Virus record (IMG/VR): IMGVR_UViG_3300030380_004975
Coordinates: 1-30,996 of that record
DNA from: a virus
Length of the DNA: 30,996 bases
Strand: one strand, 5' to 3'
Shown: positions 571-13,403 of the stretch, piece after piece
Layout: each line of letters begins with the position of its first letter
How positions within the stretch are numbered: position 1 is the stretch's first letter
Translations under genes and position numbers: made by a program
Notes under the pieces: generated by a model
The model's input: only the letters and a program-made list of their open reading frames with translations
What the model was told of the DNA's origin: nothing
Databases searched by the model: none

Positions 571-1131
571 TTATTTATTCGCATCCGACATCAAACTATA
601 TAGCAGATGTTTATACCCTAATACTTTCCGCACTGGTTCAAAGTCTGGGTGTGTTGAATATGTATCATAAAGATGATGAGCACCATATTTACAGATGTCT
701 GCCATTTCTTTATTTGCTTGTGATTCTAGATGCGTGTATAATACGAGATCCAACATATCAGCCATTTTCAACCGTGCTTCGTCTTTCATGGAAAGATTGG
801 CGTATAGCCACTTAATTTCATATCTTTTTACGATAGCTAACTCTGCTAGTTCAAAAGCATTACCTATTTCTGGGTGATTACGTTTAGCTGTGAAAGGTAT
901 GTCCCCTAGAAAAATTTCAGGTACATCATGATACAATGCTTTTTGTAAGAGTTCCTTACTGGCATCTGCCCATAATTCATTCACCAATATCGCCACTCCG
1001 TATGAATGTGACCCTACTGTTTGTTTCGGGTGAAGTGAAGCAACTGTGTGAAACCGTGAAACGAACTGTGCATTCCAGCTTGTTTCTAACCTTTCAATGT
1101 TCAGTGTTGTCTTGCATTCTTGTTTGTCCAT
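571..1131 (-). CDS. YfbR-like HD-domain 5'-deoxynucleotidase
   Basis: HD-superfamily phosphohydrolase of 186 aa, close to the usual size of YfbR-type 5'-nucleotidases, which dephosphorylate deoxynucleoside monophosphates with a divalent metal. Visible signatures are an early Arg (R26), the metal-binding His in SHSYGVA (H42), the HD pair in LYHDVPE (H68/D69), the following GDIPF (D77) and a late Asp in KMADMLD (D125). The start ATG follows GAGAGG and lies inside the 3' end of the polymerase gene (38-nt overlap), implying translational coupling. In a phage such an enzyme could remove competing host dNMPs or tune pyrimidine pools, which fits the neighbouring thymidylate synthase homologue. The family call is good; the substrate is inferred. 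Confidence 0.85.
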   Translation of the reverse strand: MDKQECKTTLNIERLETSWNAQFVSRFHTVASLHPKQTVGSHSYGVAILVNELWADASKELLQKALYHDVPEIFLGDIPFTAKRNHPEIGNAFELAELAIVKRYEIKWLYANLSMKDEARLKMADMLDLVLYTHLESQANKEMADICKYGAHHLYDTYSTHPDFEPVRKVLGYKHLLYSLMSDANK

Positions 1132-3016
1132 CGTTTATCCCTCTCATCCATGGTTTATCGCTAAAGTTTTTCTTGGCTTCGCCCCAACTTGGACCGAACT
1201 CCGCATCAACAAGTGAGGGTATCTGCATCTGCACACAGGTTTCCATCACCTCTTTTATTCGCTGTGCTGTTTTTTCATCAGCCACAGAAATATCTAATTC
1301 ATCATGCACCTGTATTAAAGGTATAATACCTTCCTTGTGCAGTTCAACCATCGCCGCTTTTGTTTGATCAGCGGCACTCCCTTGTATTAATCTGTTAAGA
1401 GCTTTGTAAGTAAAGGCTCTTTTGATTGCAGGACCGTGTTCAGCATACGCATCTTTATAGTTCAACGGTTTGTAGACACCGTAAATGTTTGGCTCCCATT
1501 TATCAAACCGACACTTACGTCCAAGCAGGGTGCGTATACTACCTTTTTTGGATGCTCGCTGTGTAGCATATTCTGCGAGCTGTTGCACAAAAGGAACTTT
1601 GCTGTGGTATTCTGCAAACAATTCTTTAGCATCATCAAATTCTAGCCCAAGCTGTTCAGCTAATTTGTTCTTGCCCATGCCATAGAACAATCCGAGGTTT
1701 ATATCTTTTGCCTGTTTGCGAGGCACACCAACGATATCAGCCGCCATCTGGTGAAAGTCCGTACGCACATCAGTATTGTATTGTTCAGCAAACTGTTCTG
1801 CCCCTGTAAGTTTTAACAGACTAGCATAGTGGACAACTAGGCGTGGTTCCTGACTGCTATAATCAAACGCCCCCCATACCTCACCTTCTTCTGGTAAAAA
1901 CAAACCACGTATCATAGGACCTATCTCAGCATTACGTGCAGGGACTTGCTGAAGGTTAGGGTTACTGTAACTAAATCTACCTGTGACTGTGCCACCTTCA
2001 TCTGATCGGAGGCTATGGGCTTCTGCATGTATGCGACCCTTGTGTTGGTGCTTGAGTATAGTATCAATAAATGTGGTTCTAGCCTTGTTGAGTTCCCTTG
2101 CTCGCACTACAGCTTTTGGTAATGGGTCTTCGTGATTAGCTAAAAAGTTTTTGGTAAATGACGGTGCTCCGCTTTTTGGTGTTTTAGGATACCGTAACCC
2201 TTTGGTATCAAAGGCTTTTGCAATACTGTTCGCCGCCCAGATATCAATGTCTTCACCTTTTACCGATTGTAGTATTTCCTTTTCTTGCTTTTCTAAATAC
2301 AACTTGAGCTTTTCGGCACGCTCTAAATCCACACGCACACCTCGCTTACGCATCTCAAATACCGAACGTAAGACATTTGTTTCAAGGTCAAACAAATCAC
2401 CTACATCTTCTTTTACAATAAGATGTTTAAAATGTTGCCATAATCGTAATGTTAAGTCAGCATCTTGTTCAGCATATGTGCCTACGAAGTGAGCAGGAAG
2501 TTTATACATTTCATTCTTTGGGTTTACTCCAAACTCCTTCGCGGCTTCTTTTAGTAATACTTCGCTTTTACGTTCACCTAAGTAATCTTTACCTACATTG
2601 TTAAGTGAGTAACTGAACCTGTTTTCATCAAGACAAGCGGCGACAATCATAGTATCAATAATCCTGCCCTGCACCGTGATCCCTTCAGCCCATAACCACC
2701 CCAAGTCATACATCGCATTGTGCATAATGTAATCGCGTGGAACTGAACAAATGTTTTTTAGCCATTTAAGAGTTTGCTTGGCGTCAAGGTTGCTACCATT
2801 CTGGTGTCGTATAGGAAAGTACCATGCCTTTCCCTCTACTGCCACAGCGATACCTATTATATACCCATCATTTCTAGCCCACCCACTACCATGTGATAAT
2901 AAGTGTGGATCATAGGTTTCTAAATCTATAGAAACTTCTTTAGCTTCACTCAGGTTAGGGTAGCCATCAGGCATCACCCATTCTGTCTGAGGTGTGAACA
3001 GTGGAAACTGCACCAT
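1094..3016 (-). CDS. polA: Family A DNA polymerase with 3'-5' exonuclease
   Basis: Replicative phage DNA polymerase of the Pol I/T7 type, 640 aa, without a 5' nuclease domain. The N-terminal DnaQ-like proofreading domain shows Exo I in SIDLETY (D31/E33), Exo II in HNAMYDLGW (D104) and Exo III in YAEQD (Y181/D185). The polymerase domain follows, with TGRFSYSNPNLQQVP at 345-359, motif A FDYSSQE (D385, E390), motif B RKQAKDINLGLFYGMG (R433, K437, Y445) and motif C QVHDEL (H571-D572-E573). All catalytic residues appear intact. The residue matching E. coli Phe762 is Leu441. The start ATG has AAGG upstream. The gene overlaps the small zinc-ribbon gene by 50 nt and the nucleotidase gene by 38 nt. 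Confidence 0.95.
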   Translation of the reverse strand: MVQFPLFTPQTEWVMPDGYPNLSEAKEVSIDLETYDPHLLSHGSGWARNDGYIIGIAVAVEGKAWYFPIRHQNGSNLDAKQTLKWLKNICSVPRDYIMHNAMYDLGWLWAEGITVQGRIIDTMIVAACLDENRFSYSLNNVGKDYLGERKSEVLLKEAAKEFGVNPKNEMYKLPAHFVGTYAEQDADLTLRLWQHFKHLIVKEDVGDLFDLETNVLRSVFEMRKRGVRVDLERAEKLKLYLEKQEKEILQSVKGEDIDIWAANSIAKAFDTKGLRYPKTPKSGAPSFTKNFLANHEDPLPKAVVRARELNKARTTFIDTILKHQHKGRIHAEAHSLRSDEGGTVTGRFSYSNPNLQQVPARNAEIGPMIRGLFLPEEGEVWGAFDYSSQEPRLVVHYASLLKLTGAEQFAEQYNTDVRTDFHQMAADIVGVPRKQAKDINLGLFYGMGKNKLAEQLGLEFDDAKELFAEYHSKVPFVQQLAEYATQRASKKGSIRTLLGRKCRFDKWEPNIYGVYKPLNYKDAYAEHGPAIKRAFTYKALNRLIQGSAADQTKAAMVELHKEGIIPLIQVHDELDISVADEKTAQRIKEVMETCVQMQIPSLVDAEFGPSWGEAKKNFSDKPWMRGINDGQTRMQDNTEH

Positions 3017-3170: not shown

Positions 3171-3525
3171 AGCGTAACCTCATCTCTGCTTCCACTAAAA
3201 ATAAATAACGCCTCAAATCTTTTATATCATCAAGTATGCCTTCTTCACGAGCATCATCTTGTACTGCTTCAAATACGTCCCACTTAAAATCTTTTACTTG
3301 GTTTTCTATTCTATCCCACTTACGTGCTAGCATCATAAATGCCCCAACACCACCACGCTGTTTCCAGCTGTCACCATAGGATTGTTCTGACTTATGTAAA
3401 CCTTGAGCATCTGCACCTGAAAGCATATGCACCTTTCTGATTATAGAACTATAGTTCCCTGCTAGTTTGTCTAGCTGTTCCTCTTTGCTTTGGGCTATGA
3501 CCACCTTACCACTTTTATCACGCAT
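3151..3525 (-). CDS. DUF1599-like (nucleotide modification associated domain 1) protein
   Basis: A 124-aa all-helical-looking protein. The core has YGDSWKQRGG (about 50-59), GAFMMLARKWDRIENQV and, further on, EEGILDDIKDLRRYLFLVEAE, a pattern I associate with phage proteins of the DUF1599/Nmad1 group, found beside thymidylate synthase and DNA-modification genes. No catalytic residues can be assigned with confidence; the conserved acidic residues recall helical MazG-like nucleotide hydrolases. Its ATG overlaps the stop codon of the thymidylate synthase homologue (TAATG), with AGGAG upstream, so the two are translationally coupled. A role in handling or making modified pyrimidine nucleotides is inferred from context. 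Assignment to the family is by motif memory, not by search. Confidence 0.65.
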   Translation of the reverse strand: MRDKSGKVVIAQSKEEQLDKLAGNYSSIIRKVHMLSGADAQGLHKSEQSYGDSWKQRGGVGAFMMLARKWDRIENQVKDFKWDVFEAVQDDAREEGILDDIKDLRRYLFLVEAEMRLRFEDKPK

Positions 3526-4541
3526 TATATTCTCCTTTCAAGCCATTCTGTACAGGCAATACGCCAGTCTTCATCTACTATTCTTTTGCAATTATTAAGT
3601 GCTTCATCAACACGTTGATTATAGCTATCCTCTTGGTACTCAGAATACCCTGTTTTAGCATCTTGCCAACAAACCCACGCATCATACATAGGTATTACCA
3701 ACTCTTCAAACACACCGTTTTGGTAATCAGTGTGACCATATGGGTAGTTTATAAACTGTTGTAGTTCTTTATCAAATGATTCTATAAACGAAAAAGTTAC
3801 TGTCGGCATTATATTGTTTTGTCTATACAAGTTACGCTCAGTAAGACCTTCTAGCTTATCCAATATTTCTTTGTAAGCGTGTAAGTTGTTAGTGAACTGG
3901 GTATATGTTCCTACTTCTGCTTCAACATGACGTGCAATATATTCCTGTAGAAAGGACATATGCACTACGTTTGCTCCCAATGCTCCCCATATTAAATCAT
4001 TACTACGATTACATACCGTCATATCTAGAACACCCTCACGTAATTTAAAATAAACATGAGTATTGCAGGGTAGATCAGCATGACCATTGTGAGGTGTTAA
4101 GTCACTCCTGGGATCCCACATAGTAAGAACTGTTCTACGGTCGTTTGGATACTTACGTAATCTATCAATAACTATTTTTAATTGGTCAAAATCAAAATGG
4201 TGACGCCAACGGTGACCATATGAACCATGAAAGGTTTGCCCATCATCGCTGTATTCTTTCATACGCTTATTAAACTTACTTATCCAGCTCACATCTTTGC
4301 GACCTGCCAGTAACCACATAGATTCCATAAAGTGAAAGAAAGGGTTGGCGTCTCTGACTGGACAAAACAACACACGCTGACGTGGTTTTCTATATGTAAT
4401 AAGTATTGGGAATGGAAACTCATACGCAGGACCGTTGCGAGTATCAATTAAGTTACCATTAAGTTTTATATCTTCTGCAATAAGTGGGAGAGCTTCTGTT
4501 ACGTTATCTACTAAGTATGTATTAAGGGTACGTGCTACCAT
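3525..4541 (-). CDS. Thymidylate synthase / pyrimidine hydroxymethylase homologue
   Basis: 338 aa, longer than E. coli ThyA (264 aa). Recognisable elements are the folate/substrate-side Glu in FMESMWLLAG (E73), YGHRW (108-112), the phosphate-binding Arg pair in NDRRTVL (R135/R136), the catalytic Cys in DLPCNTH (C159), the RSND motif (179-182), an Asn at N191 in GANVVH, and NNLHAY (H221/Y223). N191 matches the Asn that selects dUMP in thymidylate synthases (Asp in dCMP hydroxymethylase), although one extra residue lies between RSND and it. The enzyme would transfer a one-carbon unit from methylene-tetrahydrofolate to C5 of a pyrimidine monophosphate, giving dTMP or a 5-hydroxymethyl nucleotide. 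The modification genes upstream make the second product attractive. The start has TAGAAAGG 8 nt upstream. Confidence 0.88.
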   Translation of the reverse strand: MVARTLNTYLVDNVTEALPLIAEDIKLNGNLIDTRNGPAYEFPFPILITYRKPRQRVLFCPVRDANPFFHFMESMWLLAGRKDVSWISKFNKRMKEYSDDGQTFHGSYGHRWRHHFDFDQLKIVIDRLRKYPNDRRTVLTMWDPRSDLTPHNGHADLPCNTHVYFKLREGVLDMTVCNRSNDLIWGALGANVVHMSFLQEYIARHVEAEVGTYTQFTNNLHAYKEILDKLEGLTERNLYRQNNIMPTVTFSFIESFDKELQQFINYPYGHTDYQNGVFEELVIPMYDAWVCWQDAKTGYSEYQEDSYNQRVDEALNNCKRIVDEDWRIACTEWLERRI

Positions 4542-4621: not shown

Positions 4622-5638
4622 CTAAGAACTGGTCTCCGAGCTATTTTTAAAGTCGTAATGTTTCTTGACTAACTGTGTATATGGTTCTCCTTGCACTGCT
4701 TCTTTAACTAAATGATCTATAAACATATCTGGCTCCATAAGCACGGCTCTACCCATACGGTCAGGTAACAACCCATTACGGAGAGTTACATTATCACAGC
4801 CATTACACACACCAAAATCACGCTGTCCGTGATACAGTTTTGTACGAGCGGCGTAGAAAGCATTATTTTGCCAAAGATCTGTGATGTTTTCTTTTAAGAT
4901 ATTCCCACACTTATATACTCCTGCCCAATCATTACAGCACAAAGCAACATTACCGTCCCACCGTAAACTAAGTTCCCTGAAAGGTTTGGCACATCGTTTG
5001 CCCTGCTGTGTGTGATTTAATGGAAAAGCAGACCCTGCATGATTACTAACAAGCGAATGCGTACCATCAGTAGCCAAAGTCAAATCCATTCCAACGACAA
5101 TATCTTTTTCTTTTGCTTTCCTACGTCTATGAGGATTACCCCTTTTGTCTTGTGGATATTGGTAGACGGGATACGGACCTTCATAACGTTCCTGAATCTT
5201 ATCTACTATTTTAATACGGTCATAGTTGTCTAGAAACAATACGTTCACACCTGCTTCCATAAGTTTATTAACTTTTGCTGTAATATCTCCAAGTAGACCG
5301 CCACCATTACTTGTCATCATTATAGATGTTTTTGGCAATGTTTTACGGAAAATAGATATGATGCCACAATAATCAGGGTGCATGGTTGGTTCACCGTGCA
5401 TGGCAAACTCTAAACGTGGGTTCCAATGTTCGTTTACCATAGCCTGCTTTATTTGATCAGCTATAGTTTGTGCCAGTTCTGCTGTTAATATTTTATAAGG
5501 AGACGATGCTCTACCGTGAATGTTTTTTGGACCGTCAGCTTTGTTATCACGTATAGCTTGTATACCACAAAACGAACAGGCGAGGTTGCACCCCTCTACT
5601 AATTCAATTTGTATGGCGTTCGGTGCATCCTGCTTCAT
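4622..5638 (-). CDS. Radical SAM/SPASM-domain enzyme
   Basis: 338 aa. The N-terminus carries the radical SAM cluster motif CNLACSFC (C17, C21, C24: Cx3Cx2C) directly after a beta strand (IQIELVEG), and FAMHGEPTMHP matches the glycine/Glu SAM-binding strand. The C-terminal part has SPASM-like cysteines: GKRCAKPF, then VALCCND after RWDGN, KCGNI and finally VCNGCDN, preceding a short helical tail. It should bind at least one auxiliary Fe-S cluster. Such enzymes use a 5'-deoxyadenosyl radical to modify peptides, sugars or other substrates. The start is an ATG with GGAGA upstream, and it overlaps the glycosyltransferase gene by 35 nt. Its place between a glycosyltransferase and a pyrimidine C1-transferase suggests a role in DNA base modification (inference). 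Confidence 0.88.
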   Translation of the reverse strand: MKQDAPNAIQIELVEGCNLACSFCGIQAIRDNKADGPKNIHGRASSPYKILTAELAQTIADQIKQAMVNEHWNPRLEFAMHGEPTMHPDYCGIISIFRKTLPKTSIMMTSNGGGLLGDITAKVNKLMEAGVNVLFLDNYDRIKIVDKIQERYEGPYPVYQYPQDKRGNPHRRRKAKEKDIVVGMDLTLATDGTHSLVSNHAGSAFPLNHTQQGKRCAKPFRELSLRWDGNVALCCNDWAGVYKCGNILKENITDLWQNNAFYAARTKLYHGQRDFGVCNGCDNVTLRNGLLPDRMGRAVLMEPDMFIDHLVKEAVQGEPYTQLVKKHYDFKNSSETSS

Positions 5639-6392
5639 AAGCTTTTCTCCATTGTACTCTTACATCGTAGCGTTTTTTCATACCTTCCCAACCTGTTTTA
5701 GTTTCTTTTTCTACAACCTTTACAAAGTCAGGGTAATAAAAAGCTAATTGTTTAGAGGCATGTTCTTGTAACTCCAGAGTGCGATACGTGCTACACCCTC
5801 CTTTTGCTCCTGAACCACCACGTTGATCCCATGTCCAGTCTACTATTACAGCATTAGGCATTCCTTTTGCAAATAAGCCGAGTGTCATAAAGTAATCTTC
5901 CATGAGCTCCACAGCATTATACTTTAACCCTGTGTTATAAATATCAAAAGGTCGTATGCCATGCACAGCATTCATACGCATACCATGCTTGACTTTATAT
6001 GGGAAATGTTTATCGTTCATTTGGCGTGGGCTAACGCCGACATGCACGTACTCATCAAGTAACTTATCCATTCTATCAAAAAGCTCCGCTGTTTCTTGGA
6101 TTGTTACTTTTCTTAAGTTGGGTGCATCATCAGATGCCCGAGTATTAAAAATAAGATCATCGTCCAAAATAAGAATTTTATCATAGTGTGCCTCCATAGC
6201 ATATTCTAATATAAACTGCCGAACATTATTTATGCCTGTCACTTCTCCACGATCTATAACTTTACGCCCCATAAGTTCGTGTTGTTTGACTTCATGCTTG
6301 GGGCAGACAACAAAAGAATTCTCCTTACCAATGCTGTCTAGCGTGACTTGTTTATATACTCTGCCTTTTGTGGGAATAAATATTGGTATCAT
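5604..6392 (-). CDS. TET-associated-type glycosyltransferase (GT-A fold)
   Basis: 262 aa. The N-terminus IPIFIPTKGRVYKQVTLDS is the opening strand and nucleotide-binding loop of a GT-A glycosyltransferase, and KILILDDDLIF (D77-D79) provides the DxD-type metal/sugar-nucleotide motif. The overall look, including NNVRQFIL before the DxD and a later WDQRGGSGAKGG segment, matches my memory of phage TAGT proteins, predicted to glycosylate hydroxymethylated pyrimidines in DNA. The start ATG has AGGA upstream and is one base from the stop of the hypermodification gene. The downstream radical SAM gene overlaps its end by 35 nt. A sugar donor cannot be read from the sequence. No TET/JBP dioxygenase gene is visible, so the acceptor hydroxyl may come from the thymidylate synthase homologue. 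Confidence 0.82.
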   Translation of the reverse strand: MIPIFIPTKGRVYKQVTLDSIGKENSFVVCPKHEVKQHELMGRKVIDRGEVTGINNVRQFILEYAMEAHYDKILILDDDLIFNTRASDDAPNLRKVTIQETAELFDRMDKLLDEYVHVGVSPRQMNDKHFPYKVKHGMRMNAVHGIRPFDIYNTGLKYNAVELMEDYFMTLGLFAKGMPNAVIVDWTWDQRGGSGAKGGCSTYRTLELQEHASKQLAFYYPDFVKVVEKETKTGWEGMKKRYDVRVQWRKAYEAGCTERHTN

Positions 6393-6393
6393 T

Positions 6394-7398
6394 TTAAAAT
6401 CCTAACTCTAAACGCTCAGGGTGTAACATACGTTCTGCCCCCTGCTTTTCAACTGTTGGTTTATAAAGACTACGTGGTTTACCCTGCCCCCATAAAACTC
6501 TTTCATACTTGTCCCACTCGCATAAGCTGTGTTCAATACAACGCATATCTACCATATTTTGTAGCTCGTCGCTCGCAAGCACCCACCCATACGGAACTAA
6601 TAAACCTTGTTCAGGGTCACGCATTTTTTGTAATAATTCAAACATTTTTTGGTTAGCCTCAGGCTGTGGCATAGATTTATTTAAAATTGATGCAGGGATA
6701 CGGCTATTTTTAAGCCTGTTCAAACCACGTATTGCTCCAGGACCTGCGTTTGCCCACGTATATCTGTCCCTAGCAAATCGTAACACAGGCGTGTAGTTAA
6801 GGTCTGTGACTACCTCATATGCCATAAATCCTCCGCCACCAAACCCTTGATACTTTTTAAGTTCCTTATGTACTTCATACAAACTAAGGCTGTCGTGTGC
6901 GACTTTTCCTAAGTACAGCCTAGCTGAATAAAGGGGTCGCAGGAAGTGGTCTACTACAACTTCACCCTTTGGGAGTTTTAAGCCTTGATTTGTAATTACA
7001 TATGCTCCTGTGAAACACCTTTGTTTATCACGTAAGCGTTGGTCTATCAAGTCTTTTGTGTATTGTGGCGACCAGTCTTTGCCTACCCACCCATGAGCAT
7101 CAAAAAACTCTGACGTGCCAATCATGCGGAACAAACACGTATTAAATATAATATCGCCATATGGGCTATTATCGTGTGCTTTTGTCCACTTTCTAAACGC
7201 TACTGTTGTACGGTCATGCTCCCTAAAAGGATTAGTGAACTTGTATGTTTCAAGGATAGGGTCATCAGTAAGTTTTTTACGACCCTGTTGTTTCTTTTTA
7301 TAAATATTGTGACGCTCAGCAATCCAGTAGGCAAACCTTTTGATGGGTTCTTCTGGAACACGCTCACGCCAGTTTCTAATACGATCATATAATATCAT
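6394..7398 (-). CDS. Putative DNA base hypermodification protein (HMUDK_hel-type)
   Basis: 334 aa, resembling the helical domain of 5-hydroxymethyl-dU DNA kinases and stand-alone 'DNA base hypermodification' proteins. Hallmarks are FAYWIAERHNIYKKK (22-36), TDDPILETYKF then TNPFREHDRT (44-64), a central GGGGFMAYEVVTDL (187-200), WANAGPGAIRGLNRL (215-229) and the terminal CEWDKYERV (293-301) before GKPRSLYKP. No Walker A motif is present, so it lacks the P-loop kinase half that some relatives carry. It should act on or bind a modified thymine-type base in DNA, but the reaction is unknown. TAGAAAGG lies 7 nt before the ATG. It is the first gene of the modification operon, downstream of a terminator-like hairpin. 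Confidence 0.82.
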   Translation of the reverse strand: MILYDRIRNWRERVPEEPIKRFAYWIAERHNIYKKKQQGRKKLTDDPILETYKFTNPFREHDRTTVAFRKWTKAHDNSPYGDIIFNTCLFRMIGTSEFFDAHGWVGKDWSPQYTKDLIDQRLRDKQRCFTGAYVITNQGLKLPKGEVVVDHFLRPLYSARLYLGKVAHDSLSLYEVHKELKKYQGFGGGGFMAYEVVTDLNYTPVLRFARDRYTWANAGPGAIRGLNRLKNSRIPASILNKSMPQPEANQKMFELLQKMRDPEQGLLVPYGWVLASDELQNMVDMRCIEHSLCEWDKYERVLWGQGKPRSLYKPTVEKQGAERMLHPERLELGF

Positions 7399-7489
7399 AG
7401 TACCACCTTTCTATATGGTTGGTGGGGTGAAGCACTTGCACTACAAGCAGAGCTAACGCACATTGACTTACCACCCCAAAAATACTATA

Positions 7490-7517
7490 GCCCCTTGCCT
7501 TTTCACAGGCAAGGGGC
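7490..7517 (-). terminator. Hairpin terminator after the DUF932 gene
   Basis: A perfect 11-bp stem (7490-7500 with 7507-7517, arms GCCCCTTGCCT/AGGCAAGGGGC) encloses a 6-nt loop. It begins only a few bases after the DUF932 stop codon. On the minus strand it is followed by a short gap and then TATTTTTGG, a modest T-run, so factor-independent termination is plausible but imperfect. No T-run follows on the plus strand. It would separate the DUF932 unit from the modification operon, which starts about 90 nt further on. Confidence 0.65.
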
Positions 7518-7523
7518 AAAAGC

Positions 7524-8555
7524 TCAAGATGCCTCAGCATACTCCATAACTTTGTCAAGTGCCTTACGCTTGGTATTTGCACCCGAACCAAACCACGCAG
7601 AGGTTAGCCGTAAGTCATTAGTCTTAGACTTTTTCTGGTGATCCATAACATAGGTAACACCATTGAGAACACCCCACCACGAACCTTTAGCTGAAGCTAG
7701 GTCAGCTCCTGGTGATTCTTCAATAGCCTCACGCACAGCCATACTGGTTTTAGTAAACTCCTCGTGTAACGGAGGTAACACCTGTTCCATAACTTTGCCA
7801 CGCTCCTTGAGCACATTAGGCTGGAACATCTCTGCTATGAAGTTGTCTACTTGGTCTTGCTTGGCACGCTTTTTTGCCAAGAACTCTGACTTTTGCTGGA
7901 ACAACTCCATTTGTGTACCGCTAATACCAAGTGCTTCCTCAGCGGCAGTCATAATGTCATCATCAAACATTTGTAAGTGTAACATACGGAACTTACCAGT
8001 GATGCCGTCTTGGTTGAGGGCAAGGGTAATTGTATTGTTACAGACAACACGGATAGGCGTAAACATAATAGTCATAGCCGTACCTACCTTGTGACTGTTA
8101 GCCATAAGCAAGTAACCCTCAATTTCGTCGCCACCTGCTAACTTGAAGCCCTTTTTAATTTTAGCCAGACCCCATACACGCTCACCGTCACTAAGACTAC
8201 CTGCCGTATCCATAGCCATTTGACCTGCGTCAGTAAACTTTTTAAAGAACGACATAGTCTCATGGTTTTGGAATGGCGTAAAAGCCTCACCACAATGCGA
8301 TAACACTTTGTTATCTGTATCACGTACAACCATATATTGACCGTCGGCTGTAAGTAATTTAGCTTCACCACGTGGATCGTTGAGATCCCATACGTCTGGC
8401 TTACTAGCATAATAGACAGGACGTTTGCTAACTGTCCAATCGAGTCCTGCGGCTTTTAACATTTCCTCAGGAGTGAGGTTGCCCTCAACTTTATTACCTA
8501 GCCCATGCCAAGGGACTTCCCCTGCATAAGCCATAGTTTCTACCATATGTGCCAT
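7524..8555 (-). CDS. DUF932 phage/plasmid-like protein
   Basis: 343 aa, matching the DUF932/TIGR03299 family of proteins of unknown function found in phages and plasmids. Diagnostic pieces are the N-terminal GEVPWHGLG (12-20), YMVVRDTDNKVLS, GERVWGLAKI, and IRVVCNNTITLAL. It looks soluble, mixed alpha/beta, with a charged helical C-terminal third. The start ATG is preceded by TAGAAAGAGAGG. It is one of the few genes here not overlapping its neighbours: a 20-nt gap precedes it and a hairpin follows it, so it may be strongly and separately expressed. DUF932 genes are often near replication or recombination genes. No reaction is known to me. Confidence 0.88.
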   Translation of the reverse strand: MAHMVETMAYAGEVPWHGLGNKVEGNLTPEEMLKAAGLDWTVSKRPVYYASKPDVWDLNDPRGEAKLLTADGQYMVVRDTDNKVLSHCGEAFTPFQNHETMSFFKKFTDAGQMAMDTAGSLSDGERVWGLAKIKKGFKLAGGDEIEGYLLMANSHKVGTAMTIMFTPIRVVCNNTITLALNQDGITGKFRMLHLQMFDDDIMTAAEEALGISGTQMELFQQKSEFLAKKRAKQDQVDNFIAEMFQPNVLKERGKVMEQVLPPLHEEFTKTSMAVREAIEESPGADLASAKGSWWGVLNGVTYVMDHQKKSKTNDLRLTSAWFGSGANTKRKALDKVMEYAEAS

Positions 8556-9002: not shown

Positions 9003-10520
9003 CTATGCTAGTTGATAGCCCCGACTGAACATTGGATGTATCAAGTGCAGGTTACGGAGTGCTCGTGTCAAACCCACATAAAACACACGAGCTTCATCAT
9101 AATGTTCGTTTTCAAACTTACGCCACATTGAATATGAGCGACGCATAGTATCTGTAAGCATCATAACATTGGTAGCCTGAGCTCCCTTTGCTGAGTGAAT
9201 CGTTGAGATTCTGATCCGTGGGTCATCAGTAAGTGATTCGCCTTTACGCAAACACGCTTTGATATATATTCTATCTCTATCAGCAATTTTACCAAGACCT
9301 TCGTCCCAAGGCAGGCTATGCAATAATCCATGGAAGTCTTGTAAATCTTGTAGGGTGTATGTTTGGTCAGGCTGACCTTTGGAAAATGTTTTGTGTCCAT
9401 ATTCAACCTGCGTGCCAAGAAGCATTTGTCCGTAGACTATCTTTACTTGTTCATATGTAAGGCGAGCTCCATTGCGTAAGTTTTCCCATAATCGCACAGC
9501 TTCTAATACTTTATGGTCAATTGACTTACTGCCATTATAGATATACAAGTGACCCCTACGCCTGACCTCTTCTTCTATTTGTTGAGCTCCACGAGTGGTT
9601 CTGCTGAGTAATAGCCAATCTCCATCTGATAAATCCACTTCAGCTGAGTGTCTATGCCAAAATACGCAACCTTGTTCTTCACGAGGTACAAACTCCTTTG
9701 GTCTTCTGCCCACCACCTTACGAATCACATTCTGGCTCAGCACATGGTGGCTAGAAGGTATCCTATAACTTCTATTAAGCACCGTGACTTCACCTTTTAA
9801 ACCTATAAAATGATCTACATCAGCCCCTGCATAACGGAATATAGCTTGGTCATCATCACCTGCTATGTATGTTTCTTTTGCATTCTGTTGTAACAGTTCT
9901 ACCATACGCCATTGGAGCGGTGATAAATCCTGTGCTTCATCTATAAACACCACCTCTAGTCTAGGTGCGAGTTGCCTATCACAAAACTGTTCAAGCATAT
10001 CGGTGTAATCAAATAGTTCGTGGTGGTCTTTCCATGCTCGTAACCCCCTGCTTACATAATCCACTCTTGCCCAATCTGTTTTAAGTGGCACAGTGGAAGC
10101 ATTATAAACAGAACGCAGTTCTTGTTTTTGTATTCGTGCGATATTTATTATTTCCAAAAACTTATCACCATAACCAAAGTCTTTATATGGACCTTGCTCC
10201 ATCACCTGTTGGCTACCAAAGAACTTACCTATCTTTAACCATTCACCTATTTCGGCATACTTTTCAGCCGACATAATCTGTGAGGTAGTAATACCAATCT
10301 GCATAAAGGCTAGGCTATGAAGTGTTCTAAAAAAGGGTAAATCACGTTTAGTCAACTTAAACTTTTTGTATGCTCTATCAACAGCTTCATGGGCGGCTCT
10401 TCGTGTAAAAGCAAAATACCCGATTCTATCTGGTGACACACCCTTTTCCAAGTATTGCTCAATCAAGTTAAGCAGGGTAGTGGTTTTGCCAGTTCCAGGA
10501 GGACCGAGTATTATCTTCAT
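9003..10520 (-). CDS. UvrD/Rep-like superfamily 1 helicase
   Basis: 505 aa, compact relative to UvrD (about 720 aa). Motif I (Walker A) is at the very N-terminus, GPPGTGKTT (6-14). Motif Ia is YFAFTRRAAHEA, motif II FIDEAQDLS (DEAQD 194-198), motif III GDDDQAIFRYAGA (221-233), motif IV LNRSYRIP, motif V ISTIHSAKGAQATNV and motif VI FYVGLTRAL. It would move along single-stranded DNA 3'-5' using ATP and unwind duplexes during phage replication or recombination. Its ATG overlaps the primase stop codon (TAATG), so it is translationally coupled to the primase. No DnaB-type helicase is visible in the window, so this or the SNF2-like protein may serve at the fork (inference). Confidence 0.93.
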   Translation of the reverse strand: MKIILGPPGTGKTTTLLNLIEQYLEKGVSPDRIGYFAFTRRAAHEAVDRAYKKFKLTKRDLPFFRTLHSLAFMQIGITTSQIMSAEKYAEIGEWLKIGKFFGSQQVMEQGPYKDFGYGDKFLEIINIARIQKQELRSVYNASTVPLKTDWARVDYVSRGLRAWKDHHELFDYTDMLEQFCDRQLAPRLEVVFIDEAQDLSPLQWRMVELLQQNAKETYIAGDDDQAIFRYAGADVDHFIGLKGEVTVLNRSYRIPSSHHVLSQNVIRKVVGRRPKEFVPREEQGCVFWHRHSAEVDLSDGDWLLLSRTTRGAQQIEEEVRRRGHLYIYNGSKSIDHKVLEAVRLWENLRNGARLTYEQVKIVYGQMLLGTQVEYGHKTFSKGQPDQTYTLQDLQDFHGLLHSLPWDEGLGKIADRDRIYIKACLRKGESLTDDPRIRISTIHSAKGAQATNVMMLTDTMRRSYSMWRKFENEHYDEARVFYVGLTRALRNLHLIHPMFSRGYQLA

Positions 10521-12028
10521 TATATTATATCACTATCCTTAGGTAACTCAGGTAAGTCCAGTGTTTCTTCGCTTATAAAAAAGTCTTGTGGTAATGACCA
10601 TACATGTATCCCTTTGCCCTTCACTCTCCAAAACATTTTTTCTGCCTCTATATTCTGTAACCTTAGAGTAATTTTATTAGACGAATAGTGGTTAAAGTCA
10701 TTTACAGATAAGTGTTTCTTTACATCTTTTATCTGAAAATAAACTCTACCATCTACCCATACTGCGACACCCTGCAGAATATCCTCCCTGTCTGCTCCTT
10801 TTGCACGTTCGCTACAAAAAGAGTGGAGTAAATCTACAAACTCACCTTTTATAGTAGCATCAGGTGGCACTTCTACAATCGTTAAATTATCTAACAGTAG
10901 CTGAATTTTAGTTTGCCATGCTCTTTGGTTAATGGTTACAGGGAGTTTATTGATTTGTGACACACAATCTTTTTGAAATCGTGTTTGGCTAATCAACCCA
11001 TCGGTGCTTACTTCAATGCGTTGCCCATCAACATCAAGTATCCATATAGGTGGGTCACCATCTATTTTAGTAAGACTAGACATTTGGTTTTGCACTCCTG
11101 CAGGACCAACACCATGCTTACGAGTAAGACACACGTCTTTATTACAAAAAGGTTTGATAGGTTGGTCATCACACTTATAATGGTATTCTTTACGTTGTAG
11201 CTGTTTAATCACAGCACCTACCTCGTTATGCCCTAATGGTGGCTGTAGATAATCCACATTGTACCTTTGCACTAGACCTTCCCAGTTATCAGGGTCAAAC
11301 AATCGAGCATACACACCCAGATTAAACAAAGCATTATTACGTGACCCTTCACTAAACCCTTGTTGGCACAGTTCGTTTAAACAAGGGGGACCGTCCTTGA
11401 GTGTAAGCTCTGGTTCTGATACACGATATTGCTCAAAGTCATTTGGTTTTATCCTCCACTTTTCTGCCTTAGTTACAAACTCTTCAGGTGACATAAGCTC
11501 ACCCTTAAAATCATAAACAGAGCGAGTGGTTAGCTCGCCCTTGAAATATGGCATATTCATAGCACTACCTGTATCACCCCTGTCCACTAATATAGTAGCC
11601 TGCTTTGGGAATATTTCACCATCAGCATGACCTAGTGAAGAAGCTAACTCAGCAAGTTTACTTTTTACAGTTGAGGCTTGTATACGCCCCTTAAAGAAAA
11701 AATAAACATGAGCTCCACCCGATTTACTGCGTGCCACCCACCCTAATACCTTTGCTTCTTTTAGCTTTTTTACTAAGGCTTGGTGGTCAACACTGTAATT
11801 ATCAATATCAATGGCTCCCCAAGAGGCTGTGTTATCATCGCATATAGGAATAATACGTATACCCTTTTCACCATCTAGGTGCTTTTGCCACAAGTCAGCA
11901 TTGGGTGGTGTTTTGATTACGGTATACACACCGTTTTTCTTGACACCACCGTTTGCATCATCAGGCAAAAACATACCGTGAGCTCGCTCGTTACCTGCGA
12001 ACAGTTTAAAAAACTTTTCCGCAAGCAT
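10520..12028 (-). CDS. AEP-superfamily DNA primase (primase-polymerase)
   Basis: 502 aa. The N-terminal archaeo-eukaryotic primase domain (about 1-200) has the metal-binding DxD in WGAIDIDNY (D74/D76), the sxH motif in SKSGGAHVYFF (H107), and GEIFPKQ (137-143) before the third acidic/basic cluster. This resembles the primase of TOTE-type elements and many marine phages. The middle (about 215-330) has cysteines in PPCLNELC and further on YKCDD, FCNKDVCLTR, which may form a zinc or Fe-S site, with GSRNNALFNLGVYAR between them, as in PriCT-like regions. The C-terminal third is unassigned. It makes primers for the family A polymerase. Stop/start overlaps (TAATG) couple it to both the SSB-like gene and the helicase gene. 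Confidence 0.88.
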   Translation of the reverse strand: MLAEKFFKLFAGNERAHGMFLPDDANGGVKKNGVYTVIKTPPNADLWQKHLDGEKGIRIIPICDDNTASWGAIDIDNYSVDHQALVKKLKEAKVLGWVARSKSGGAHVYFFFKGRIQASTVKSKLAELASSLGHADGEIFPKQATILVDRGDTGSAMNMPYFKGELTTRSVYDFKGELMSPEEFVTKAEKWRIKPNDFEQYRVSEPELTLKDGPPCLNELCQQGFSEGSRNNALFNLGVYARLFDPDNWEGLVQRYNVDYLQPPLGHNEVGAVIKQLQRKEYHYKCDDQPIKPFCNKDVCLTRKHGVGPAGVQNQMSSLTKIDGDPPIWILDVDGQRIEVSTDGLISQTRFQKDCVSQINKLPVTINQRAWQTKIQLLLDNLTIVEVPPDATIKGEFVDLLHSFCSERAKGADREDILQGVAVWVDGRVYFQIKDVKKHLSVNDFNHYSSNKITLRLQNIEAEKMFWRVKGKGIHVWSLPQDFFISEETLDLPELPKDSDII

Positions 12029-12825
12029 TAGAAGGGTGTTTCATCCTCTACATCATCAGCTTCTATTTGAGGTGCTTGTGATGGGTTGGGTGCTTCTTGC
12101 TCTAACGCTTGGTGCTGTATCTGTGCTTTACCTTCTAACACAGCACTTTGGAAGGTAAGGGCTTCTTGAAACATATCGTTATCGGTTAGTTTGTCTAACT
12201 CATCAACTGCACCAACCTTTTCAATATCCCAACCAAACCAACTACCTTTGTCATTACGCTCCTCTACGGTGGTTAACTTAAACTTTGTAGACATCATGGG
12301 TAGCCTTTTTGGTTTACCATCACCACCTTTAAAGGTTTGCTGACTTAGCAAAGAGTTCCACCTTTTAGCTTTACGCAACTGCGTGCTTGTCATGGGTATA
12401 AGTGCTTTTGATGCTTGATCGCCTTGCACTAACAACACAAAAAACTGTGACGTTTTGGTGAGTAAGTTGCCATTTGGCAACACATCTTCATTACGTTCGT
12501 TTGACGTTGTAGTTTTAACAATAGGGTCTTCAGGTAAATACGAACCCATATACCCACCACCTTGCTCACGAGGTGTCCACTCAACATACCGTGTATTATA
12601 GTGACAAGGTATTACTTCTATACCTTTTACACCATCGTATACTTCATGAGTCACACTATTATAAATCATGCCTGCTTCAGCCCCTTCAACATACGCACCA
12701 TCACGTTTGTTGGTTTGTGGACTTGTGTTTGCAAGTATCCGCAAAAACGGTATTGCCATATCATCAGTAGAAGTTTCTTCAAACCCCAAGCCTGATAGTT
12801 TTTCTAGTTCGCTTAATTTTGCCAT
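12028..12825 (-). CDS. Putative single-stranded DNA-binding protein
   Basis: 265 aa. The N-terminal half resembles a widespread phage protein annotated as ssDNA-binding: FLRILANTSPQ, then GMIYNSVTHEVYDG, IEVIPCHYNTRYVEW and PREQGGGYMGSY. The C-terminus is disordered and Gln/Pro-rich, ending in the acidic tip EADDVEDETPF with a terminal aromatic, like the protein-docking tails of T7 gp2.5 and bacterial SSB. The start has AGGAGGG, one of the strongest ribosome-binding sites in the window, consistent with a protein needed in many copies. It is coupled to the primase by TAATG. Its role is coating replication intermediates and recruiting partners. The fold is not provable by eye. Confidence 0.7.
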   Translation of the reverse strand: MAKLSELEKLSGLGFEETSTDDMAIPFLRILANTSPQTNKRDGAYVEGAEAGMIYNSVTHEVYDGVKGIEVIPCHYNTRYVEWTPREQGGGYMGSYLPEDPIVKTTTSNERNEDVLPNGNLLTKTSQFFVLLVQGDQASKALIPMTSTQLRKAKRWNSLLSQQTFKGGDGKPKRLPMMSTKFKLTTVEERNDKGSWFGWDIEKVGAVDELDKLTDNDMFQEALTFQSAVLEGKAQIQHQALEQEAPNPSQAPQIEADDVEDETPF

Positions 12826-12836
12826 ATTTTACCCTC

Positions 12837-13403
12837 CTATATTTTTTTAGTAACTTTGGCTCTACGTCCCTCGTAGATGTTTAACAAATCAAAAGGTAGC
12901 TTAACTTCACCCTTTTGTATTTGCTCCTTAACAAAAGCCTTGAGTGATTGATATTCCACCCATGTTTTTGTAGAAGACTTATCAGCTAGACCTCTTGTTT
13001 TTAGGTCTGCCACTAATGCTGTTGCTTTGTTGTGTTCTTTACGGTCAAATACTATTTCCACCTTATTTTTTATTAGGTGATCAAAGTTATTATCTACCAA
13101 CCAAGCAAATGCTTTTTCACGTTGCTCAAGATCGGTAGCTGATATACGTGCATCATAAAAATCAGTAATGGTAACAGAATACCCATCTTCAGTAGTAATT
13201 TCTTTTATTTGGTGTTCATCAGCTGATGTGGGTAACAACTCCTCAGATACTTCCCTGAGCCGTGCCTTTTTAACTTTTATTGCACCTTCAAGTTCACGTA
13301 TATCTTGTTCTAACTGCACTTGTTCCTTACACAGTTTGCTTATGGTGCTAACACCTTCCTCACTTACTGCCATAAGTTTATTTGCTATTTTTTCTAGTTC
13401 CAT
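12837..13403 (-). CDS. Conserved phage protein with N-terminal coiled coil
   Basis: 188 aa. Residues about 20-55 form a charged heptad-like helix (EQVQLEQDIRELEGAIKVKK) followed by a short beta-rich domain (EDGYSVTITDFYDARI), then AFAWLVDNNFDHLIKNKVEI, and a C-terminal helix ending in KGEVKLPFDLLNIYEGRRA. This arrangement is familiar from marine phage replication modules between the SSB-like gene and small unknown proteins, but no function is established that I know of. The C-terminal segment before GRRAKV resembles phage proteins tested only as hypothetical. The ATG overlaps the upstream stop (TAATG). A structural or scaffold role in replication is possible but unsupported. Confidence 0.78.
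   Translation of the reverse strand: MELEKIANKLMAVSEEGVSTISKLCKEQVQLEQDIRELEGAIKVKKARLREVSEELLPTSADEHQIKEITTEDGYSVTITDFYDARISATDLEQREKAFAWLVDNNFDHLIKNKVEIVFDRKEHNKATALVADLKTRGLADKSSTKTWVEYQSLKAFVKEQIQKGEVKLPFDLLNIYEGRRAKVTKKI

Follow-up and report, generated by a model that had tools for sequence, protein, structure and literature searches.

The marine viral DNA analysed here, a 31-kb IMG/VR record without end repeats taken at its full length of 30,996 nucleotides (the window), may carry a kinase-free cluster for the hypermodification of 5-hydroxymethyl-dU (5-hmdU), in which a helical-domain protein, HMUDK_hel, would present the base to a TAGT-family glycosyltransferase; we hold this reading with about even confidence. 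Somewhat more tentatively, we propose that HMUDK_hel is a general 5-hmdU adaptor, base-presenting or base-priming, which would serve the kinase, TAGT and at least two GT-B glycosyltransferases at thymidine positions of viral DNA. The features concerned are:

571-1131, minus strand: HD-domain 5'-nucleotidase (YfbR-like), probable dTMP/dNMP phosphatase; PF12917 E 8.5e-10; 28% identity to M6 gp59.
1094-3016, minus strand: family A DNA polymerase, a landmark beside the cluster that is kept apart from the modification role; tblastn 51-55% to HTVC023P/HTVC027P/023Pt_psg01 and 38% to M6 gp62.
3525-4541, minus strand: thymidylate-synthase-family (TS) protein, predicted dUMP hydroxymethylase; PF00303 E 4e-24; 42% identity to M6 gp58.
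4622-5638, minus strand: radical SAM/SPASM enzyme, CxxxCxxC at residue 17; PF13186 and PF04055; 35-nt overlap with the TAGT gene.
5604-6392, minus strand: TAGT-family glycosyltransferase, GT-A type, DDD at residue 77; PF20691 E 8e-11, 42.7 bits against 27.5; PHROG 842.
6394-7398, minus strand: HMUDK_hel (PF18723, aGPT-Pplase1), 334 aa, no P-loop; Pfam E 1.5e-43; PHROG 2396; AlphaFold2 pLDDT 87.6, predicted HhH/DNA-glycosylase-like.
7524-8555, minus strand: DUF932 protein, kept as the upstream neighbour in 78 loci and outside the assigned pathway; PF06067 E 1e-44.

The E-value of the PF18723 match identifies HMUDK_hel as a genuine family member rather than a chance hit; the match scores 149.6 bits against a cut-off of 25 and aligns residues 19-303 to profile positions 4-276 of 281. 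The open reading frame starts with ATG, with a good ribosome-binding site (AAAGGTGG) directly upstream, and a 1-nt gap separates its end from the TAGT start. The first-pass annotation had described a protein with the helical-domain motifs and no GxxxxGK[ST], and this description holds: TDDPILE lies at residue 44, WANAGPG at 215 and CEWDKYER at 293, and a motif scan found no Walker A in the 334 residues. Other viruses supplied near-identical copies (94-96%) as well as about 80 homologs, and identity to M6 gp55 is 32.5%. Between DUF932 and HMUDK_hel (7399-7523), an inverted repeat (CCCCTTGCCT..AGGCAAGGGG) and, after it, a run rich in T resemble a terminator, so HMUDK_hel may open a new transcription unit. 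Further along the cluster, the TS protein retains the pyrimidine-recognition Asn that is typical of uracil-using members of its family, and the family A polymerase adjoins the cluster in M6 and the pelagiphages too. A TOTE-type archaeo-eukaryotic primase domain protein and Pam3 gp34/gp33-like proteins (10520-12028, 12028-12825 and 12837-13403, all minus strand) are conserved beside the cluster in about 70 loci. A small NrdR-like zinc-ribbon protein (cluster 21; L012:10861-11217 and relatives) sits beside HMUDK_hel in 27 loci and is not in the window.

The lack of a P-loop half, which had been taken as unusual, turns out to be the ordinary condition. The P-loop kinase forms a Pfam family of its own, PF18748, and stand-alone PF18723 proteins are found in the kinase-bearing phages M6 (gp55), ViI (Vi01_130c) and Sonora (Sonora_042). 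In M6 the kinase gp54 (PF18748) adjoins gp55, in Salmonella phage ViI Vi01_130c and the kinase Vi01_061c (PF18748) lie about 50 kb apart, and in Stenotrophomonas phage Sonora HMUDK_hel and kinase are two genes. Both parts share one chain in the 636-aa Goe26_01450 of an SP10-like Bacillus phage (kinase 35-193, HMUDK_hel 312-597), and the SP10 protein, named 5-hmdU DNA kinase, is similar in length (637 aa). Surprise at the missing P-loop is partly a naming artefact, as PF18723 is titled '5-hmdU DNA kinase, helical domain'; aGPT-Pplase1 is the annotators' name for the stand-alone form (PMC9476957). 'Terminase small subunit', the label of PHROG 800, is a widespread misannotation of the 5-hmdU DNA kinase that also appears in GenBank records (e.g. 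M6 gp054, L002:6411-6974). The 795-aa ORF233c of Aeromonas phage 31 (L296:37184-39571, minus strand) shows a weak C-terminal match to PF18723 (E 0.0036) and is structurally similar to the HMUDK_hel model. HMUDK_hel ORFs of 425-501 aa on cellular contigs were considered as kinase fusions and set aside, those examined being extended open frames with no P-loop.

A P-loop kinase encoded nearby had been raised as something that could complete the known enzyme, and none was found there or in related genomes. A whole-record search with PF18748 returned no match in the window, in 22 relatives of 50-69 kb or in one relative of 28 kb, and detected all three positive controls (M6, ViI and Sonora); the same search of 26 further records, whose type was glycosyltransferase or unassigned, was likewise negative, with eight of eight kinase-type control contigs detected. 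In total, 49 related records that do not belong to the kinase group (26 of them over 50 kb) yielded no PF18748 kinase, and 11 kinase-bearing controls were detected; most of the genomes searched are of unproven completeness, as IMG/VR records may be fragments. Since the window record is itself a 31-kb fragment, we infer the absence of the kinase from its own virus from these relatives. A Walker A scan of six near-complete genomes of 52-63 kb, one of which (G009) has a 95-bp terminal repeat, found UvrD helicase as the only clear Walker A protein. A kinase hidden elsewhere in the genomes was rejected on these negative whole-record searches and the scan. The ~205-aa protein encoded between DUF932 and HMUDK_hel at 63 loci (cluster 11; L011:9214-9840 and relatives) was also dismissed as the missing kinase: it has no Walker A and no Pfam match above cut-off, and neither the window nor its nearest relatives have it. 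As for other transferases, neither the window nor 23 relatives gave a match to AADT (PF18724) above cut-off, and T4-type alpha- and beta-GT (PF11440/PF09198) gave none in 11 records, in a search without a responding positive control.

The distribution of partners is mutually exclusive. At 165 viral HMUDK_hel loci, drawn from viral-contig searches and phage records with neighbours called by six-frame HMM searches, HMUDK_hel is accompanied by a glycosyltransferase in 97 cases and by a kinase in 51 (40 of which also have AADT), and by both in none. The 97 glycosyltransferase loci divide into TAGT (52), the GT4-like GTB_A (31) and another GT-B protein, GTB_B (14), and never contain two kinds. Restricting the count to loci flanked on both sides by at least 4.5 kb gives 70 with a glycosyltransferase, 21 with a kinase, none with both and six with neither (Fisher p ~3e-16 for the 70/21/0 split, uncorrected for relatedness), and a TS homolog is present in 95 of these 97 well-flanked loci. 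The corresponding figures are 36, 21, 0 and 5 in a non-redundant viral set, and a largely independent sample of 75 loci on cellular genome contigs contains eight with a glycosyltransferase, 12 with a kinase and none with both. Position is nearly fixed, with the kinase upstream of HMUDK_hel in 50 of 51 loci, the glycosyltransferase downstream in 93 of 97 and the same strand used throughout. The counts are not phylogenetically independent: only about three switches between kinase and glycosyltransferase are seen on the HMUDK_hel tree, which leaves the exclusivity with little independent replication. Within the glycosyltransferase loci the type switches 12 times by parsimony while HMUDK_hel is kept, some of these switches falling between sisters with starred support; the well-supported branches alone force fewer.

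Three unrelated glycosyltransferases fill the slot behind HMUDK_hel. GTB_B has no Pfam match, and its predicted structure (pLDDT 75) is that of a GT-B glycosyltransferase (Foldseek E 4e-9, Z 22), with Z 20 against T4 alpha-GT with HMU DNA. In two further loci (L086, 10893-11954, and L087) a 353-aa protein without a Pfam match occupies the glycosyltransferase slot after HMUDK_hel and is possibly a fourth exchangeable partner. No fusion of HMUDK_hel with a glycosyltransferase was found among 240 loci. The radical SAM/SPASM gene accompanies TAGT in 32 of 52 viral TAGT loci and occurs in no other viral locus examined, so the likely target of the enzyme is the TAGT product or the sugar; in the archaeal contig L227 a radical SAM homolog lies beside a GTB_A-like protein. 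The first-pass proposal that HMUDK_hel works with the adjacent glycosyltransferase is thus upheld as a proposal, on better grounds than the one offered: no kinase is encoded nearby or in the related genomes searched, the predicted fold is DNA-glycosylase-like, and the gene is tied to a glycosyltransferase neighbour. On cellular contigs (L221-L295), 55 of 75 HMUDK_hel genes have no modelled kinase, AADT or glycosyltransferase within 8 kb, mostly have no TS homolog and in some cases lie in neighbourhoods that look chromosomal (for example L258, Haloferax elongans; L254, Halomarina; L265, Woesearchaeota; L285, Alphaproteobacteria). These partnerless genes may relate to the aGPT-Pplase domain predicted as a defence domain (PMC13092281).

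HMUDK_hel itself differs little between the two settings. At least 95% conservation is seen at 34 positions in kinase-type and glycosyltransferase-type proteins alike, and two positions are class-specific. This equal conservation suggests that HMUDK_hel does the same job with either partner, which would then not be phosphorylation. Many of the conserved residues are polar (D46, N56, R59, E60, D62, R91, K144, D199, D211, R224, N227, R228, C293, E294, K297 and R300), a pattern that would suit an active site no less than a binding surface.

The AlphaFold2 model of HMUDK_hel is all-helical (pLDDT 87.6, pTM 0.86). Its top match in VIA-align is AADT (8z2m), a 5-phosphomethyl-dU glycinyltransferase (Z 10.2, 230 residues, rmsd 4.6 Å), and the list includes the HhH DNA glycosylases MjOgg (Z 9.6, 183 residues, 4.5 Å), Mag1 (Z 9.1) and EndoIII (Z 7.8) and a DUF2419 queuosine-salvage enzyme (Z 9.4). 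Helical models can reach such Z values through a common arrangement, but the first 43 rows are homogeneous, which argues against such an origin here, and unrelated folds begin at Z 3.8. A plain Foldseek search of the model against the PDB gave no significant match, and the fold call is based on VIA-align and its AADT and glycosylase rows. A DNA-glycosylase-like fold, on which the first-pass annotation had staked its interpretation, is accordingly what the model predicts, with Z 7.8-9.6 against 3.8 for the first unrelated folds. HMUDK_hel and AADT have collinear motifs (an N-terminal TxDP, GxFMAYEVxTD / GPWIxFKxADM, and a C-terminal E...LC). The AADT profile PF18724 has no match in the HMUDK_hel of the window at E<=1, and hhalign aligns the two families over a short stretch (26-37 columns in the better alignments). 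From the model and these motifs we read them as distant relatives. No homology of HMUDK_hel to the kinase or to TAGT was found by hhalign.

Built on gene content, the absence of the kinase family in the relatives, partner exclusivity and the predicted fold, the route that we favour is a proposal as to substrate, base presentation, sugar transfer and order of steps. By analogy with M6, the TS-family enzyme would make 5-hmdUMP and the HD nucleotidase would lower dTMP, such that 5-hmdU enters DNA at T positions. HMUDK_hel, as an HhH DNA-glycosylase-like protein, would bind the DNA and present 5-hmdU, probably by flipping it out, to a separate partner, which in M6, ViI and SP10 is the P-loop kinase and here would be TAGT. 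TAGT would add a sugar to the hydroxymethyl group of 5-hmdU, and the radical SAM/SPASM enzyme might then edit the adduct or the sugar. Joint action of kinase and HMUDK_hel is suggested by their fusion in an SP10-like phage, and it is this fusion, together with the fixed neighbour position and the glycosylase-like fold, that points to a presenting role. Counting against the proposal are the many polar conserved residues, the lack of any HMUDK_hel-glycosyltransferase fusion, the 55 of 75 cellular genes with neither partner nearby and the small number of kinase/glycosyltransferase switches on the tree.

As the acceptor of the known TAGT is a base that already bears glucose (PMC13216743), the TAGT of the window may not be the first transferase. 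Together with the best structural relative of HMUDK_hel being a transferase, this makes our main rival reading, which we consider rather unlikely, one in which HMUDK_hel itself puts a small group on 5-hmdU in DNA and TAGT or a GT-B enzyme adds the sugar to that group. AADT, its best structural match (Z 10.2), attaches amino acids to 5-phosphomethyl-dU and has the collinear motifs in common with it; the conservation of HMUDK_hel is enzyme-like, novel transferases are anticipated in phages whose TAGT stands alone (PMC13216743), and no T4-type alpha- or beta-GT rose above cut-off in the 11 records of the search without a responding control. However, AADT works on a phosphorylated base, for which a kinase is missing from the records searched here, a profile alignment of just 26-37 columns leaves shared chemistry conjectural, and three unrelated glycosyltransferases would all need to extend one primer.

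That 5-hmdU phosphorylation has been retained, through a kinase from the host or an unrecognised non-P-loop phage protein within an M6-like pathway supplemented by glycosylation, seems improbable given that glycosyltransferases replace the kinase with zero overlap, that AADT is likewise absent above cut-off and that the six genomes have no second P-loop protein of the usual pattern, although the unproven completeness of most searched genomes, with IMG/VR records possibly fragments, leaves it some room. We give slightly less credence to HMUDK_hel as a DNA glycosylase-like surveillance enzyme, removing for example host thymine or under-modified phage 5-hmdU. Its predicted fold and an invariant D211, some 18 residues past an HhH-like motif at what we take to be the position of the GPD aspartate in EndoIII, would suit excision, but the SP10-like kinase fusion and the TS homolog in 95 of 97 well-flanked loci fit modification better. 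Least probable, and to our minds very much so, is an ordinary aGPT-Pplase1 gene of a pelagiphage-like virus with its kinase merely beyond the 31-kb fragment: the stand-alone protein is the usual PF18723 form, and PMC9599517 already lists pelagiphages with TS, aG/PT-PPlase1, 5'-deoxynucleotidase and glucosyltransferase, yet no kinase turned up in the 49 related records that fall outside the kinase group, one of which has terminal repeats.

We therefore retain base presentation to a glycosyltransferase as the preferred reading. The Pfam name of PF18723 points at kinase activity, but in at least 97 viral loci the protein stands with a glycosyltransferase and without a kinase, which sets the role of HMUDK_hel apart from phosphorylation and makes it directly testable with two purified proteins. 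This finding also bears on a question raised in PMC13216743, namely what transferase makes the acceptor ready where a phage has TAGT alone, and suggests a second, predicted route for decorating thymine positions in viral DNA. If HMUDK_hel is indeed an adaptor, it would constitute a plug-in system that lets viruses change their DNA decoration, and kinase-free, sugar-based hypermodification of thymidine would be common in marine phages. HTVC023P-type pelagiphages rank, according to PMC9599517, with the most abundant viruses of the sea, and the predicted modified base may accordingly occur widely. The co-occurrence of TS, HMUDK_hel and glucosyltransferase in pelagiphages is already known from the same source; the systematic absence of the kinase, the exclusivity of partners and the structural link to the AADT transferase provisionally appear new, with no statement of systematic kinase absence or of kinase/glycosyltransferase exclusion found in the papers covered.

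Phage M6, whose DNA carries 5-hmdU-derived bases (PMC6449724), has a cluster comprising gp51 (AADT), gp52 (PLP), gp53 (rSAM), gp54 (kinase), gp55 (aGPT-Pplase1), gp58 (TS) and gp59 (HD). The window has in common with it the PF18723 protein, the TS-family enzyme, the HD nucleotidase and the family A polymerase next door, but lacks the kinase, AADT, PLP enzyme and Nmad5 and has TAGT and a SPASM-type radical SAM enzyme instead. With HTVC023P-type pelagiphages it shares a related polymerase and, near polA, TS, aG/PT-PPlase1, 5'-deoxynucleotidase and beta-glucosyl-HMC-alpha-glucosyltransferase, as given in PMC9599517, whose sections covered here are silent on a missing kinase, on kinase/glycosyltransferase exclusivity and on a radical SAM partner. 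The SP10-like fused kinases (Goe26_01450; SP10 F8WQ30) have a C-terminal PF18723 domain as in the window protein, and Goe26 differs in carrying the N-terminal PF18748 P-loop kinase in the same chain. AADT (8z2m, PF18724) has the same predicted fold and three short collinear motifs, whereas HMUDK_hel has no PF18724 match and is not expected to use a phosphorylated substrate. Finally, T6 TAGT (beta-glucosyl-HMC-alpha-glucosyltransferase) and the TAGT of the window both belong to PF20691, but the T6 enzyme works on glucosylated hmC after alpha-GT, whereas the base expected in the window is 5-hmdU.
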